A DNA stretch of 64,000 bases from Pseudomonadota bacterium (lineage in GTDB: Bacteria > Pseudomonadota > Gammaproteobacteria > Burkholderiales > Rhodocyclaceae). Shown in pieces: positions 48,617 to 59,290 of the stretch. The stretch's first letter is position 1. The number at the start of each line of letters is the position of its first letter. The notes below the pieces were generated by a model. It did not search any database and was not told the DNA's origin. It saw only the letters and a program-made list of their open reading frames with translations. The stretch covers positions 1 to 64,000 of the forward strand of contig JAGTRT010000020.1 of NCBI GenBank assembly GCA_018261895.1, in the 5' to 3' direction. A program made the translations under genes and the position numbers.

Positions 48617-49443
48617 CTACAGAAATCTCCATCGAATTCTTCCCGCCGCAAACGCCCGAAGGCGTCGACAAGCTGCGCGCCGTCCGTGCCGAGCTGGCGA
48701 AACTCAATCCTGCCTTCTTCTCGGTCACCTTCGGGGCCGGCGGCTCGACCCGCGAACGCACCTTCGCCGTCGTCAAGGAAATCGCCGCCGAAGGCCATGA
48801 CGCCGCACCGCACCTGTCGTGCATCGGCTCGACGCGCGACAACATCCGCGACATCCTCAACGAATACAAGGCAGCCGGCATCAAGCGCACCGTCGCCCTG
48901 CGCGGCGACCTGCCCTCCGGCATGGCCGAAACCGGCGAGTTCCGCTACGCCAACGAACTCGTCGAATTCATCCGCGCCGAAACCGGCGACTGGTTCAGCA
49001 TCGAAGTCGCCGCCTACCCGGAATGGCACCCGCAGGCGCGCAGCCCGAAGGACGACCTCGACGCCTTCGCACGCAAGGTCAAGGCCGGCGCCAATTCGGC
49101 CATCACCCAGTATTTCTACAACGCCGACGCCTATTTCCACTTCGTCGACGAAGCCCGGGCGCTCGGCGTCGATGTTCCCATCGTCCCCGGCATCATGCCC
49201 ATCGTCGGCTTCACCAAGCTGGCGCGCTTCTCGGACGCATGCGGTGCCGAACTGCCGCGCTGGATGCGCAAGAAGTTCGAAAGCTACGGCGACGACAGCG
49301 ATTCCATCCGCGCCTTCGGCCTCGACGTCGTGACCGAACTGTGCGAACGCCTGCTCAAGGGCGGCGCGCCCGGCCTGCACTTCTACGCCATGAACCAGTC
49401 GGCGCTGACCACTGAGATATGTAAACGTCTCAACCTGAAGTAA
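48613..49443 (+). CDS. metF: Methylenetetrahydrofolate reductase; extreme 3' end supplied by inserted island
   Basis: 276 aa; IEFFPPQTPEGVDKL, FSVTFGAGGSTRERT; C-terminus SALTTEICKRLNLK encoded by low-GC, recoded DNA. Confidence 0.95.
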   Translation: MTTEISIEFFPPQTPEGVDKLRAVRAELAKLNPAFFSVTFGAGGSTRERTFAVVKEIAAEGHDAAPHLSCIGSTRDNIRDILNEYKAAGIKRTVALRGDLPSGMAETGEFRYANELVEFIRAETGDWFSIEVAAYPEWHPQARSPKDDLDAFARKVKAGANSAITQYFYNADAYFHFVDEARALGVDVPIVPGIMPIVGFTKLARFSDACGAELPRWMRKKFESYGDDSDSIRAFGLDVVTELCERLLKGGAPGLHFYAMNQSALTTEICKRLNLK

Positions 49444-49624: not shown

Positions 49625-50470
49625 TTGATCTTGTTTGACGCGCCCCATTCTTCGCCTATTTCCGCTACGGATACAAAGGTCATACCGTTTTTGAAGTGGG
49701 CAGGTGGAAAGCGTTGGCTAGCCTCCGATCTGGTAAAAAAAATCGGGCAGCCTGTTGGACGTTATATCGAGCCTTTTTTAGGTGGTGGCGCAATATTCTT
49801 TACTCTCAGGCCAAAAAGTGCACTATTAGGTGACCTCAATACAGAGCTTGTCGACACCTATAGGGCTATTCAGAAAAACTGGCGAGGTATTAAAAGTAGG
49901 TTGGAGCGGCACCAAGAACTACATACTAAAGACTATTATTATACAGTTCGCTCCACTACTCCTAAGAATGCGCTTGATAGAGCTGCGCGGTTTATCTATC
50001 TAAACCGAACTTGCTGGAATGGGCTATACAGAGTAAATCTTAGTGGTGTATTCAACGTACCTATTGGCACCAAAAATACCGTATTGCTGGATACTGATGA
50101 TTTTGAAACCATTTCCCATTTACTTGAATCAGCAAAAATACAAGCAGGTGATTTTGAATCACTAATTGACCAAGCAATTGAAGGGGATGTGGTGTTTGCT
50201 GACCCACCGTACACCGTACGGCATAAATTTAATGGGTTCGTTAAATACAATGAAAGCCTATTCTCTTGGGACGACCAAGTTCGTCTTCGAAATTCACTGC
50301 TGCGTGCGATGAATCGGGGAGCAAAGATTTTCGTAACTAACGCTGACCACGAAAGTATCCGAGTACTTTACGGAGATGAATTTGAGCTAACAGGTATTGA
50401 ACGTTACAGCTCGATTAGTGGAAAATCGAGCACCAGAGGTAAATATCCTGAGCTAGTTATTACAGGGTAG
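49625..50470 (+). CDS. D12-class (Dam-type) N6-adenine DNA methyltransferase
   Basis: 281 aa; FLKWAGGKRWL, EPFLGGGAIFF, VVFADPPYTVRH; TTG start in track. Confidence 0.92.
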   Translation: MILFDAPHSSPISATDTKVIPFLKWAGGKRWLASDLVKKIGQPVGRYIEPFLGGGAIFFTLRPKSALLGDLNTELVDTYRAIQKNWRGIKSRLERHQELHTKDYYYTVRSTTPKNALDRAARFIYLNRTCWNGLYRVNLSGVFNVPIGTKNTVLLDTDDFETISHLLESAKIQAGDFESLIDQAIEGDVVFADPPYTVRHKFNGFVKYNESLFSWDDQVRLRNSLLRAMNRGAKIFVTNADHESIRVLYGDEFELTGIERYSSISGKSSTRGKYPELVITG

Positions 50471-50563
50471 AACCATATTCTGAATAGCGTTAGCACACAA
50501 CTTTGATGCACCCAAAGACTACAATTTGCACGAAGTTAGATTTGTCATATTAATAGGCTGAAT

Positions 50564-51136
50564 ATGCGTGATTGGCTAGGTAGAATCCCAATAATTGGAC
50601 CTGCATTCACATGCACACTCCGTGATCACATTTCTGCTGTTGCAGATTTTTCGATCACTGTGGCATTTTCAAGCATAACATTTTGGCTATCGGTAATTAT
50701 CCTTAGCATCTTTGATGTTAACCGCAGTGTCAGCCTAGGTGATTTACTTGGTAGTACAGTTCAAGGTGGGGAACTATTCATATTTTCACTCGGCATCCTT
50801 GGGCCAATTCTAATTATTGTCATGGACGATGCGCGTAAAGCCAAAAATTTTCCATCTGGAAAATGGTTAATGTTCCTATTGGTAGTTTCCGCGTTGGTAT
50901 GTGGCAGCCTTTTTGCAATTCTTAAGGCCAATAGCCTTCACGGAGCTAGTGGACTGGGCATAGATAAAAATCAAGCGGTAAGCATATCGTTCTGGATGGC
51001 TAGTGTTGCTTGTGCCCTCCGGTATCTAACGATTGCCTACAATAAATCTCTAAGCCGATTCAGCGCGGAAGATCTTCAAGCAGGGGAACAGCAATTCAAG
51101 AATGCCTTCGCCACTAGGCATGGAAAGGGAAATTGA
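50564..51136 (+). CDS. Hypothetical membrane protein (about 4 TM)
   Basis: 190 aa; hydrophobic segments ITFWLSVIILSIF, LFIFSLGILGPILIIVM, WLMFLLVVSALVCGSLFAIL, AVSISFWMASVACAL. Confidence 0.75.
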   Translation: MRDWLGRIPIIGPAFTCTLRDHISAVADFSITVAFSSITFWLSVIILSIFDVNRSVSLGDLLGSTVQGGELFIFSLGILGPILIIVMDDARKAKNFPSGKWLMFLLVVSALVCGSLFAILKANSLHGASGLGIDKNQAVSISFWMASVACALRYLTIAYNKSLSRFSAEDLQAGEQQFKNAFATRHGKGN

Positions 51137-52302
51137 TGCAACAGCGTAGCATTTTGAGAGATCCCTATAAGGTTGAAATCAGGGCACTCCCTGTTGAGCA
51201 GCCACTTGGTACATTTTATATAGCAGCTCTAGACTCAAAGGTGCTGTGTGAAATAACCCACGCAGATGTCCGCAGAATGTATAAAGAGCGGGATATTGAA
51301 ACCTATTTAGGAATTCAACGCCCTTTAAATCCGAATCGCGTACAAGAAATTAAGGAGTTTGTAAAAACGTCCGACGCATGTTTTCCGACTGGCGTTATTC
51401 TTGCGGTTAAGGGTCAGTACGCCAACTTTGACGAGAACACCCTGACGCTAACTCTTCGCAATTACGAGGAGGATAGCAATCAAGAGGCAAATATTGACCG
51501 CATTGAAATTGCTCAGGTTCTAGATGGTCAGCATCGTATCGAAGGACTTCAAGGTTATAACGGAAAGCCTTTTAATGTAAATATTGTTGTCTTCGTAGAC
51601 ATTGACATTGAAGATCAAGCCTATCTATTTTCAACAGTTAATCTCGCGCAAACGAAGGTTAACAAGAGTCTTGTGTATGATCTTTTCGAATATTCAAAGT
51701 CTAGAAGCCCCCAAAAAACTGGCCATAACGTTGCTGTTGCATTAGATCAATTGGCAGATTGTCCCTTCCATCATCGCATCAAACGGCTGGGAGCCTCTAC
51801 GCCAGGAAGAACTAGCGAACGTCTAACTCAAGCAACTTTTGTTGAATCGCTCCTTCCTTACATTACAAAAAACGCCATTCAAGACCGTGATCTCCTGATC
51901 AAAGGAAAACACCCGCACCGGGCGAATGATATGGAATCAAGGGAGCTTATCTTTCGAAATATGTTTCTTGATAACAGAGACTTCGAGATTGCCGACATTA
52001 TTCTTTATTATTTCGAAGCGATCAGGAATCGTTGGGCAAGCGCATGGGACTCTGATGCAAAAGGTGCTGTGCTCGGGAAAACGAACGGTTTTAGAGCACT
52101 AATGAAGCTGTTGCGGCCAGCGTATTTGCGTCTCGGAAAACCCGGCGATGTGGTACCTCGGGAGGACTTCTTGAAGTTGTTTGAAAAAAGCTCTCTTAAG
52201 GATGAGGATTTCAACATCGACAACTTCAAACCAGGCACTAGCGGCGAATCTGCACTATATAGGACACTGATTGAACAACTTGGGTTGTCTACTTTAGCGT
52301 AG
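51136..52302 (+). CDS. DGQHR-domain (DndB/DpdB-like) protein
   Basis: ~388 aa; AQVLDGQHRIEGLQGY and FSTVNLAQTKVNKSLVYDLF; TGATG overlap with upstream membrane gene. Confidence 0.88.
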   Translation: MQQRSILRDPYKVEIRALPVEQPLGTFYIAALDSKVLCEITHADVRRMYKERDIETYLGIQRPLNPNRVQEIKEFVKTSDACFPTGVILAVKGQYANFDENTLTLTLRNYEEDSNQEANIDRIEIAQVLDGQHRIEGLQGYNGKPFNVNIVVFVDIDIEDQAYLFSTVNLAQTKVNKSLVYDLFEYSKSRSPQKTGHNVAVALDQLADCPFHHRIKRLGASTPGRTSERLTQATFVESLLPYITKNAIQDRDLLIKGKHPHRANDMESRELIFRNMFLDNRDFEIADIILYYFEAIRNRWASAWDSDAKGAVLGKTNGFRALMKLLRPAYLRLGKPGDVVPREDFLKLFEKSSLKDEDFNIDNFKPGTSGESALYRTLIEQLGLSTLA

Positions 52303-52458: not shown

Positions 52459-52788
52459 TCAAACAAGCCTTTTCAAGAACTGGTCAACGATTGCTGCCCG
52501 CACATCGGGTTTTACTGCATCTAACCTGAGTAGCAATTTAGCAATCTGATCATCCTCGCAGTACAAGTATGAGAGCGGTACTGCCAGCACTTCCGCAATC
52601 AGCCTCACCGTCGGCAGGGGTGGCTCATGGACACCAAGCTCATACCGACTGATCCGGGCCCTAGCGCTGGATTCGTCAATCCCAATAGCAACACCCAGTT
52701 TTTCCTGAGGCCAGCCAAGCTCCTCACGCAACGCACGGATTCTGCGTCCTGTGATGTTCTGAGGAGATGGCTGCTTTGTACGAGACAT
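52459..52788 (-). CDS. XRE-family HTH transcriptional regulator
   Basis: 109 aa; ITGRRIRALREELGWPQEKLGVAIGIDESSARARISRYELGVHEPPL. Confidence 0.9.
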   Translation of the reverse strand: MSRTKQPSPQNITGRRIRALREELGWPQEKLGVAIGIDESSARARISRYELGVHEPPLPTVRLIAEVLAVPLSYLYCEDDQIAKLLLRLDAVKPDVRAAIVDQFLKRLV

Positions 52789-52886
52789 GTTGCGAGTCTC
52801 GTGACAAAGGCCGCCTGCGTTGTCACGTTATTCATTACACTCGCACATCTCAGTTGTACTTCATACTAATGAATTTAGGGCAACCT

Positions 52887-53696
52887 ATGCAAAAGTCATT
52901 GCACCTCCTTTGTGTTACTTGCATCACAACCCTCCTTGTTTCATGTGGTTCAGGCAAAGGGATTGATGCCCGACTCGATGCAACAAAAGGCTACGATGCA
53001 AACTTCAATGCATCTGTAATCAAGGCACTTGAATCCGCTTCGCCACAGCAGCGAGAAATCTTCTTGGGTTTGGTAGAAGGGCTTCCACTGGAACACTTTC
53101 TTGCACGTTACGGCAAAGAGCCCACCGTAAAAGAGGTGGCCAATGGGCAACTGGAGCGGTACATCGCACAACTCCAAGAAGAAATAGCCCACCTTGAGTC
53201 TCGCATCAATTCTCCCGCCTCAGAATTACAAAGCATTGTGCAAAAGATCTCGGAAGCCAACCGCAAAATGGAAAGCATCAGTGGCGAGGTAACCGAAATC
53301 AAACAGAAAGACTGGGATTCCAGTCACTGCAATAGTTCGGGCTGCGTCAAGAAGTATGCCATTAATGTAAAAATCAACGCCCCGGCTGGGATCACCTTCT
53401 CAAAACTGCCTTGCACTATAGAAATCAAGCCGCAAGGGGCTACAGCACCATTTACGATTGTAGAGAACTGCGGTGGCCGACCAGGTGGTGACTATACTTT
53501 TGAAATTGCCGATAAAGAGGCAATCTCATTTGTTAATGCCACAAGCAAGATCGAATTTATCCGATCTGAAGCACGTCAAAAAAACGGTGACAGTGAAGAA
53601 TATGTCATCCCTCGACGCCCCAAAGAAATTGAAGAACTAGATCAGGGCAAATCTCGGCTTGCAACTGCCCAAGCTTCAAAGAAACTTTTCAATTAA
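52887..53696 (+). CDS. Hypothetical lipoprotein with coiled coil
   Basis: MQKSLHLLCVTCITTLLVSCGSGKG lipobox LVSC; coiled-coil QLERYIAQLQEEIAHLESRI. Confidence 0.7.
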   Translation: MQKSLHLLCVTCITTLLVSCGSGKGIDARLDATKGYDANFNASVIKALESASPQQREIFLGLVEGLPLEHFLARYGKEPTVKEVANGQLERYIAQLQEEIAHLESRINSPASELQSIVQKISEANRKMESISGEVTEIKQKDWDSSHCNSSGCVKKYAINVKINAPAGITFSKLPCTIEIKPQGATAPFTIVENCGGRPGGDYTFEIADKEAISFVNATSKIEFIRSEARQKNGDSEEYVIPRRPKEIEELDQGKSRLATAQASKKLFN

Positions 53697-56210: not shown

Positions 56211-57629
56211 GTGGTGCCTATGGCGGCCCCTAATCCAAAGATTTCTCCTCAAGCTGTTGCCGAGGTCAATACCCCACTGTTGCCCAAAGTAATGCCGTCT
56301 CAGGATGCTGTAGATCCTGCCGCCTTGCTAAGCGCAATTCTGGCAACCATTCTCCAACACGTAATCATCGATCTGGCCCAAGCGGTCGCCGTGACATTAT
56401 GGATTGCGATGACATGGTTCATGCCGTGCATCAACGTTGCTCCTTTGCTGGTTATCACCGCACCAGAACGCGCTTGCGGTAAATCGCAACTCTTGTCGAT
56501 CGCCCTGCGCTTAGTGTTCAGGGGAATCTCAGCGTCCAACGCATCTGCGCCTTTTCTATTTCGTGCTCTTGAAGCATGGCAGCCAACCCTCTTGATCGAT
56601 GAGGCTGACACCTTCATTCGTGAGAATGCGGAAATCAAAGGGATGCTCAATGCAGGGCATACCCGCGAAAGCGCTTATGTCGGGCGTGCCACAGCAAAAG
56701 ATGGTGACTTTGAGCCAGTGCTGTTCTGTGTCTGGGGAGCAAAGGTGCTTGCGGGCATTGCCCTCGAAAAGCATCTCCCAGACGCTACGATGAGTCGAAG
56801 CATCATTGCCTCAATGCGTCGCAAGTTGCCCTCCGAAACGATCGTGCGCATTCGTCATGCGGACAAAAGCACGTTTGATGTGCTGGCATCTCAACTGGCA
56901 CGATTTGCTGCGGACTACTCCGAACAAGTCGCCAACGCACGCCCAGTGGTTCCAGATGCGCTTGGTGACCGAGCTCAGGACAACTGGGAGCCTCTGTTGG
57001 CAATTGCAGCATGTGCCGGAGAAGCATGGTTTGAAAAAGCGACCGCTGCAGCACTGGAACTCTCGAAGACGACCGATGAATCCGTAAGTGCCGGTAATGA
57101 ACTACTTACCGATATACATGCTGTCTTTAGCTCGCGCAAAAACCCCAAGATCAGTTCGGCAGATTTAATCGATGCACTTGTTGCCGATACTGAGAGTCCG
57201 TGGGCTACCTACAACCGTGGTCGACCTCTAACACCGCGCCAGTTGAGCAAGATGCTAAGCGGATACGGAATCAAATCTAAGACTGTCCGTATGGGGCCTT
57301 ACGATACGCCCAAGGGGTATGAACAAAATCAGTTTTCCGATGCCTTTGCACGGTATCTAACTCCAGCCAGGCCTGATTCATCTGAAGCAGCACATACCGC
57401 GAAGTCTCCTTCCGCAGCGGATGATGTCTGCAACGCGTCAGTGCCTTCTGAAGATGGATCATCGCATTCGGCAACGCCTGTCGACTCGACGACGGAAGTA
57501 CCCACGCCACCCCCTGCCAAGGTCAGCAGCCCTTCGCCACAAAACACGAAGCTATGGGACGAGGTTAAGGACAGTTGCCAGGAAAAGCCAATTCTGCCGT
57601 TCGATCAACGTCCCGACTCCGACTTCTGA
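56211..57629 (+). CDS. DUF3631-domain AAA+-like ATPase/helicase of mobile elements
   Basis: 472 aa; TAPERACGKSQLLSIALRLVFRG Walker A-like, PTLLIDEADTF Walker B. Confidence 0.8.
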   Translation: MVPMAAPNPKISPQAVAEVNTPLLPKVMPSQDAVDPAALLSAILATILQHVIIDLAQAVAVTLWIAMTWFMPCINVAPLLVITAPERACGKSQLLSIALRLVFRGISASNASAPFLFRALEAWQPTLLIDEADTFIRENAEIKGMLNAGHTRESAYVGRATAKDGDFEPVLFCVWGAKVLAGIALEKHLPDATMSRSIIASMRRKLPSETIVRIRHADKSTFDVLASQLARFAADYSEQVANARPVVPDALGDRAQDNWEPLLAIAACAGEAWFEKATAAALELSKTTDESVSAGNELLTDIHAVFSSRKNPKISSADLIDALVADTESPWATYNRGRPLTPRQLSKMLSGYGIKSKTVRMGPYDTPKGYEQNQFSDAFARYLTPARPDSSEAAHTAKSPSAADDVCNASVPSEDGSSHSATPVDSTTEVPTPPPAKVSSPSPQNTKLWDEVKDSCQEKPILPFDQRPDSDF

Positions 57630-57797: not shown

Positions 57798-58964
57798 ATG
57801 CCAAAAACCACGCTCGACGCTGCTTTTGTACGTAGCGCGACATGCCCAGAAGGGAAAAACCGAATCGACTTTTTTGACACCAATATTAGGGGCTTCGTAC
57901 TTGAGGTCCGCACAACAGGAGGAAGTACTTACTATCTTCGATACCGCGATGATCATGGTCGCCAACGTCAGCACAAGATCGGTGATGCCCGGTCGATCAG
58001 TTTCGATAAAGCCCGTTCGGCTGCGGAACGACTGCGTTCACAAGTCGTCTTAGGAGAGAACCCGGCCGAAGCAAAGAAGATCAAGCGATCAATTCCAACC
58101 ATCGCTGAGTTCTACAGTGACACCTACCTGCCATTCCTACAAAGCTATCGCCGCAACATGGGGTCTGACTTCAGTTTCCACCATACGCATCTGCTGCCGC
58201 GTTTTGGGAAGAAGCACCTTGATCAATTGACCACGCAAGACGTGATTGATGCTCAACAATCTATGACCAAAGCTGGCTATGCACCTGGAACAGCCAACAA
58301 GTTCATCGTGCAAATTCGCTATATGTACAACGTAGCCAAAAAGCATGGCATTCCGGGGTCTGACTTCAATCCTGCAGCCGGGGTAAAGCAATACCTCGTA
58401 CAAGGTCGTGAGCGCTTTCTGACCCAAGAAGAGATTCAACGCTTACGGACTGCCGTGGAAAAAAGCCAGAACAAGCAACTGAAGTACATTGTGGCGCTAC
58501 TTTTGATGCTGGGTTGCCGAAAATCAGAGCTGTTGAACGCGAAATGGGAGCATGTCGACTTGGAGCGACGTACTTGGAAGATCCCTCTCTCCAAGTCAGG
58601 CAAGATGCGTCATGTGCCTCTTTCCAATGCTGCGGTCGAATTACTGAATGGGCTACCACGTTGGAAAGGCTGCCCCTACGTTCTGCCTAACCCCAAAACC
58701 CGTAAGCCATTCGTGGATTTCCATGAGCCTTGGAGCACGGCATGTCGAAGGGCTGGTTTAAAGGACGTCCGCATTCACGATCTACGCCATACATTTGCCA
58801 GCAATCTCGTCAATGCGGGCCACTCGTTATTCGTGGTCAGTCGTGCGCTTGGTCATGCCAACATTGTTCAGACGGCTCGGTACTCACATCTTGCCGACGA
58901 CACTTTGCTTAAGGCCGCCGATGCTGCTGCCAGTGCTATGGGCAACACCTGGAGCAGTCTGTAA
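57798..58964 (+). CDS. Tyrosine site-specific integrase (P4-like)
   Basis: 388 aa; N-terminal DUF4102-like, LLMLGCRKSELLNAKWEHVDL, IHDLRHTFASNLVNAG, LGHANIVQTARYSHL. Confidence 0.93.
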   Translation: MPKTTLDAAFVRSATCPEGKNRIDFFDTNIRGFVLEVRTTGGSTYYLRYRDDHGRQRQHKIGDARSISFDKARSAAERLRSQVVLGENPAEAKKIKRSIPTIAEFYSDTYLPFLQSYRRNMGSDFSFHHTHLLPRFGKKHLDQLTTQDVIDAQQSMTKAGYAPGTANKFIVQIRYMYNVAKKHGIPGSDFNPAAGVKQYLVQGRERFLTQEEIQRLRTAVEKSQNKQLKYIVALLLMLGCRKSELLNAKWEHVDLERRTWKIPLSKSGKMRHVPLSNAAVELLNGLPRWKGCPYVLPNPKTRKPFVDFHEPWSTACRRAGLKDVRIHDLRHTFASNLVNAGHSLFVVSRALGHANIVQTARYSHLADDTLLKAADAAASAMGNTWSSL

Positions 58965-59290
58965 AAGTCCAGCGCACAACCCTAAAGCTGGGCAAAATCT
59001 AAACCTCTGCCACTACCCTAACATCATTTTTTCATGTTGATGGTTGGGTCAGTGGTGGGGTGAAAATTCGGCCTATTCCTAACGAAAAAAATTTCACTCG
59101 TTCGATGCTGGTAAAGCATACGTTGTGTAGATGGGAAGTCCGTGGGTGACCCAATATAAGCAGTTTGAAATCAGCCAAACCTCTTGTAACACAAGAGAAG
59201 GCAGCACTTTCAAGAAGAAACGCCATGAACCAGAGCGCCCTGACCACCGAAATCTGCCGCCGCCTCGGCTAGGCAAGCCACCAACGGCAA

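Follow-up and report, generated by a model that had tools for sequence, protein, structure and literature searches.

At positions 49625 to 52302 of the window, by which we mean the whole 64,000-nucleotide stretch of Rhodocyclaceae DNA that was analysed, lie three co-directional genes, all confirmed as real open reading frames. They make up the left cargo of an integrative element of 9.8 kb that has inserted into the 3' end of metF and whose main features are the following:

49625..50470, + strand: Dam-family (D12) adenine-N6 DNA methyltransferase; start codon uncertain (TTG in the ORF)
50564..51136, + strand: 190-aa four-helix membrane protein, proposed effector; signature GELxxY...(G/A)P
51136..52302, + strand: DGQHR protein (predicted ParB/Srx NTPase fold), proposed sensor; TGATG overlap with the membrane gene
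49385..49421, + strand: left att repeat (direct repeat D2), the metF 3' end as restored by the element
59220..59256, + strand: right att repeat (direct repeat D2), the displaced native metF 3' end
57798..58964, + strand: tyrosine integrase of the cassette-carrying element (PF00589, 1.7e-30; Arm-DNA-bind_3, 4.8e-14)

The two att repeats are 81% identical, and the uninterrupted metF end of a relative (G002, L162) matches the right-hand copy. The element rebuilds metF with a divergent tail of its own and displaces the native tail to its right end, the attachment site being protein-coding. Other genes on the element include a lipoprotein-like coiled-coil ORF (window 52767-53696; no confident family match) beside a divergent HTH gene and, near the integrase, a DUF3631 protein (56211-57629; 2.8e-48). 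Scans of the element's proteins against Pfam, NCBIfam and PADLOC families detected neither a restriction nuclease nor Dnd genes. GATC is not avoided in the window, where it is slightly commoner than expected (368 sites versus 335 in shuffled sequences).

The three proteins

The methylase matches PF02086 (2e-47) and TIGR00571 dam (2.9e-66), contains the catalytic DPPY, and has as its closest solved structure the DpnII methylase (2dpm, 4.8e-53), with E. coli Dam at 2.9e-26. Of the 63 Dam members nearly all keep, or change conservatively, five positions that published Dam structures mark as GATC contacts (K9, N120, L122, R124 and P134, numbered as in E. coli), and GATC methylation is strongly predicted as the specificity of the Dam-type enzyme. 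The cassette enzyme is the sole D12 methylase of its 85%-complete host genome; similarly, 23 of 31 cassette hosts have just one D12 methylase, a second one above 100 bits being present in one, and many such taxa lack Dam anyway.

The 190-aa protein, for which a membrane location is predicted, matches no family of Pfam, NCBIfam or PADLOC, and a comparison of 56 members of its family with the same collections returned just single weak matches at chance level. Its AF2 model (mean pLDDT 90) consists of long helices at residues 19-50, 70-91, 99-125 and 135-164 plus a C-terminal helix, and a fold search with this model against the PDB and BFVD gave nothing at E < 0.001. The family diverges quickly, with a median identity of 16% (45% for the DGQHR protein), which explains why a tblastn search of plasmids with the membrane protein as query came back empty. 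What it retains is GELxxY and a later proline, an FP lying between the second and third helices, and small polar residues in the first and fourth; the conserved positions are S36, 39 (P in most), G69, E70, 74 (Y/F), P81, F96-P97 and S142.

The third protein scores 180 bits against TIGR03187 (cut-off 58.85) and 43 bits against PF14072 (cut-off 29.1), and its DGQHR motif is invariant across 74 relatives. Its likely start, ATG at 51136-51138, shares one nucleotide with the membrane-gene stop, TGA at 51134-51136, or four if TTG at 51133 serves as the start. The AF2 model (pLDDT 88) has an N-terminal domain of mixed alpha/beta structure and a C-terminal half made of helices, and the best PDB fold matches (Noc, ParB-CDP and sulfiredoxin), all weak but forming a coherent set, point to a ParB/Srx NTPase fold, which we predict for this protein.

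A sequence-only reading of this DNA had singled out the same genes as a low-GC run made up of a D12-class adenine methylase, a four-TM protein of 190 aa and a DGQHR protein joined to it by TGATG. The description was accurate: GC content is 0.43-0.44 in the three genes and 0.63 in the host flank, the methylase family is as stated, structure prediction gives the four long helices, and the stop and start codons overlap as described. It had also seen no Dnd or restriction nuclease genes, which holds for the element; in the 85%-complete host genome DndC has no match and DndD reaches 22.5 bits against a cut-off of 245.85.

Conservation of the unit and exchange of its partners

An alignment scan of 84,980 species genomes yielded 160 relatives, and the best 80 of them were retained; a single-sequence scan of genome contigs found none. 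Together with the plasmid loci, the same-genus loci and the window they make up the 86 loci analysed, among which one record is counted twice (L003/L075); genes were modelled as simple ORF calls and TM segments counted from hydropathy. Across this set, with its best 80 of 160 relatives, the membrane gene lies directly upstream of the DGQHR gene in 82 of 86 loci, three of the four exceptions being contig ends. In 31 of the 82 the closest in-frame start of the DGQHR gene shares 4 nt with the membrane-gene stop, and in 14 it shares 1 nt. When the set, still built on the best 80 of 160, is restricted to its 65 well-flanked loci, 64 have the membrane gene directly upstream, and an adenine methylase occurs within the fetched flank of about 6 kb in 60 (Dam in 49, MT-A70 or another D12 in 11). 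For four of the five well-flanked loci with no methylase nearby (L051, L052, L054, L056 and L063), a D12 or MT-A70 methylase is encoded elsewhere in the genome; neither was found in the genome of L051.

The named hosts of the 86 loci span at least 11 phyla, several of them known from metagenome bins alone, and because the same gene order is repeated in dozens of genera the three-gene arrangement is not the product of chance. D12 methylases are otherwise uncommon, exceeding the cut-off in 47 of 151 genomes of the same family, so that a D12 gene adjoining the pair in 65 of 86 loci cannot be coincidental either. These observations support a genuine, conserved unit of methylase, membrane protein and DGQHR protein. 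The sequence-only reading had staked its proposal on finding the membrane and DGQHR genes conserved together in other genomes, and the 64 of 65 well-flanked relatives bear it out.

Close relatives in IMG/VR with a complete DGQHR ORF agree with this, the membrane gene being present in 26 of 27 (the sole exception, L135, starts at a contig end) and the methylase in all 27, while six distant DGQHR genes in the same collection adjoin neither. As the neighbours in the IMG/VR loci include tape-measure, CII-like, spanin and integrase proteins, genuine prophages carry the cassette, as do plasmids and the metF element; many other copies are simply inserted in the chromosome between core genes. In a survey of 93 flanking proteins no Pfam family is commoner than integrase, with five, and no further recurrent gene was found; some of these proteins are products of core genes and others match known defence components, such as PbeA, DrmD and type I and IIG enzymes.

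The cassette moves as a block. Homology between the window and genome G047 is confined to it (about 49680-52250; 76% DNA identity), and Diaphorobacter aerolatus and Azonexus hydrophilus have in common a 5-kb block that includes it, 90% identical at the DNA level, the result of a recent transfer. The G047 copy (L121:5473-8148), from a complete genome and with a DGQHR protein 88% identical to ours, sits directly after dnaA-dnaN-gyrB.

Over the 86 loci, again including the best 80 of 160 relatives, the methylase is of Dam type in 62, MT-A70 in 10 and another D12 in three. Mapped on the DGQHR tree, these labels change at least 14 times, one change being the Dnd branch, so that methylase type has switched about 13 times. 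The methylase is needed, then, and its type is exchangeable: it has been replaced many times and seldom lost. The membrane and DGQHR proteins co-evolve, with a Mantel r of 0.77 between them; the values for the methylase against either partner are 0.38-0.39.

The partner of the DGQHR domain varies too. Three genomes have a Dam gene followed by one for a DGQHR protein of 760-780 aa (L122:4143-7311, L181:1716-4973 and L182:2794-6047), and a domain scan of the first of these alone detected a weak NERD/HSDR_N nuclease-like N-terminus. Dam and a long nuclease-like DGQHR fusion are likely to constitute a two-gene sister system, and three loci (L026, L080 and L085) carry the long fusion type in addition to a membrane/DGQHR pair. 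Long fusion-type DGQHR proteins are also found on plasmids (L193 and L194, on pNL1 and an Agrobacterium plasmid), where a radical SAM protein, an ATP-binding protein and another DGQHR protein are encoded nearby and no methylase is annotated. The small multi-TM gene is absent beside about a dozen distant genomic DGQHR genes, including those of Dpd-like operons. Since DGQHR proteins appear with a membrane or a nuclease partner, and with predicted m6A or phosphorothioate marking, DGQHR behaves as a portable module.

A proposed mechanism and its alternatives

The cassette is most likely an undescribed relative of restriction-modification systems, with a membrane protein in place of the enzyme that cuts DNA. 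We put at roughly one half the probability that it works as a self-contained, mobile module of methylation-guided immunity (defence) or addiction, a reading built on the observed anatomy, conservation, co-evolution, and exchange of both methylase and effector partner. In such a module the Dam-type enzyme would mark self DNA at GATC, in a host with no other D12 methylase, and the NTP-binding, ParB/Srx-fold DGQHR protein would bind DNA and read its methylation state, letting go of marked self DNA as DndI does with phosphorothioate-marked DNA. On meeting unmarked DNA, whether of a phage, a plasmid or the host itself after cassette loss, it would activate its translationally coupled four-helix partner, which, by analogy with RexA/RexB, may compromise the membrane and halt infection. 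In the sister systems the nuclease fused to DGQHR would substitute for the membrane protein. Sensing of methylation, activation of the membrane protein and protection are all steps that we infer, and the sequence-only reading had likewise suggested a membrane effector governed by a DGQHR protein that senses DNA or its modification status. Because no homologue of known function can be recognised for the membrane protein, any role as a channel is assigned by analogy. If the cassette does confer immunity, the pair must hold whatever activity is directed at unmarked DNA, as no other gene is conserved. The five well-flanked DGQHR loci with no methylase nearby count against such a module, as do the six loci that encode a BglII/BstYI endonuclease as well; so does the description of DndB, the relative studied best, as a regulator of transcription. 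More tentatively, and somewhat short of even odds, the cassette may represent a widespread form of immunity guided by modification, with a ParB-fold NTPase that detects the absence of GATC m6A and opens or disrupts the membrane, the sensor being portable between methylation and phosphorothioation and the effector being a membrane protein or a nuclease.

A regulatory role is unlikely, though it draws on that same relative, since PMC4507180 and PMC12704722 report DndB as an ATP-dependent repressor of dnd. A DndB-like DGQHR protein would repress or tune methylation with the membrane protein as its anchor or as the sensor of a signal, the benefit being epigenetic control or protection of the element against GATC-cutting hosts; on prophages, plasmids and the metF element a GATC methylase alone would indeed protect against DpnII-type restriction. 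However, the methylase that would be regulated varies more than the pair, which is retained when the methylase is an unrelated one, and an analogous membrane/DGQHR pair lies beside Dnd. Nor is it easy to see why a repressor should need a membrane partner, and the fusions of nuclease and DGQHR found next to the same kind of methylase suggest attack rather than regulation.

An endonuclease of the BglII/BstYI family, known for GATC-centred sites, is encoded in six of the 86 loci, all with an MT-A70 or another D12 methylase, and likewise in two IMG/VR loci. Given its presence in six loci, the pair does not simply replace a nuclease. These loci would fit a pair that is accessory to Type II restriction-modification, aiding the endonuclease by, for example, membrane-localised interception of incoming DNA, the loci with no endonuclease being decayed or dependent on one encoded elsewhere. 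We think this quite unlikely, as no endonuclease was detected in 80 of the 86 loci, the genes are intact across at least 11 phyla, and no nuclease recurs among the 93 flanking proteins. Finally, the ParB/Srx resemblance of the DGQHR protein and the position of the G047 copy after dnaA-dnaN-gyrB would suit a SeqA/ParB-like maintenance function, in which GATC methylation and a membrane-held ParB-fold DNA binder control replication or segregation of the element, but this is highly improbable because origin proximity does not recur among the 93 flanking proteins, a recurrent ParA partner is absent and many copies lie between core genes as ordinary chromosomal insertions.

Many genomes contain Dam-type methylases whose partner enzyme is not in sight, and the cassette names the missing partners for a definable subset of them, with the prediction that these act at the membrane. 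If true, methylation-guided immunity or addiction of this kind would link modification-based self-recognition with abortive membrane effectors.

Comparison with known systems

The sequence-only reading had called the locus an undescribed defence or modification cassette. It is a conserved unit, neither the membrane gene nor the complete cassette has a model in PADLOC 2023, and a search of a library of 5.4 million papers returned no description of it; a role in defence is the part that we can only propose. The accessible portions of a 2024 survey of Dnd systems (PMC10853773) and a 2025 survey of ParB-fold proteins (PMC12704722) do not mention a membrane partner of DGQHR, and the cassette may possibly be listed in a recent catalogue.

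Among Type II restriction-modification systems, the DpnII type has the closest solved relative of the methylase. The cassette enzyme has the catalytic motif and GATC-contact residues of a sequence-specific methylase, whereas the cassette locus lacks a cognate endonuclease. In SspE/DndI a DGQQR NTPase reads phosphorothioate marks, gates an effector and releases modified self DNA (PMC11662687), and under our hypothesis the cassette would work along the same lines, its ParB-fold NTPase both reading the modification of DNA and controlling an effector. Its DGQHR protein, of which PF14072 is the sole match, lacks the DUF262 and C-terminal DUF1524 HNH domains of SspE/DndI; the mark is predicted to be m6A instead of phosphorothioate, and the role of effector would fall to a separate membrane protein. 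Lambda RexAB and Sbash gp30/31, phage-borne defences that pair a four-TM protein with a cytosolic partner (PMC6426596), resemble the cassette as two-gene combinations of sensor and four-TM membrane protein. They have no methylase, unlike the cassette, and Pfam revealed no RexA/DUF4747 homologue among the cassette proteins; no sequence relation to either system was found.

DndB and DpdB have in common with the cassette protein the DGQHR domain and the predicted ParB/Srx superfamily, and a DndB-like protein is reported to bind ATP/GTP (PMC12704722). The likeness to DndB noted from the sequence stands at the level of PF14072 and TIGR03187 and goes no further, the scores against TIGR04172 (DGQHR_dnd_1; 191.8 bits, cut-off 450) and DpdB NF041060 (68.5 bits, cut-off 300) falling below the cut-offs. 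PADLOC matches the protein with just DpdB (2.6e-22) and DndB (0.003), whose partners are absent. By sequence comparison the cassette DGQHR is neither DndB nor DpdB and belongs to a clade of its own, apart from DGQHR protein 1 of Dnd loci. A simple Dnd- or Dpd-derived cassette was ruled out by the equivalog cut-offs and the whole-genome DndC and DndD searches.

The nearest parallel in arrangement comes from the Dnd loci themselves, where DGQHR protein 1 (TIGR04172) is a full-length homologue of the cassette protein (1.8e-56) and where, in L013, L014, L015, L117, L118 and L119, a four-TM gene of 157-187 aa lies directly upstream of it. This gene is unnamed and apparently undiscussed in the Dnd papers that could be searched. 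The two DGQHR proteins occupy separate tree branches, one adjoining dnd genes and the other an adenine methylase, and the hhalign probability that the Dam-type and Dnd-type membrane families are homologous is just 17% (E 0.0014). If the proposed mechanism is true, it would also hint at what DGQHR protein 1, so far unexplained, does in Dnd loci.
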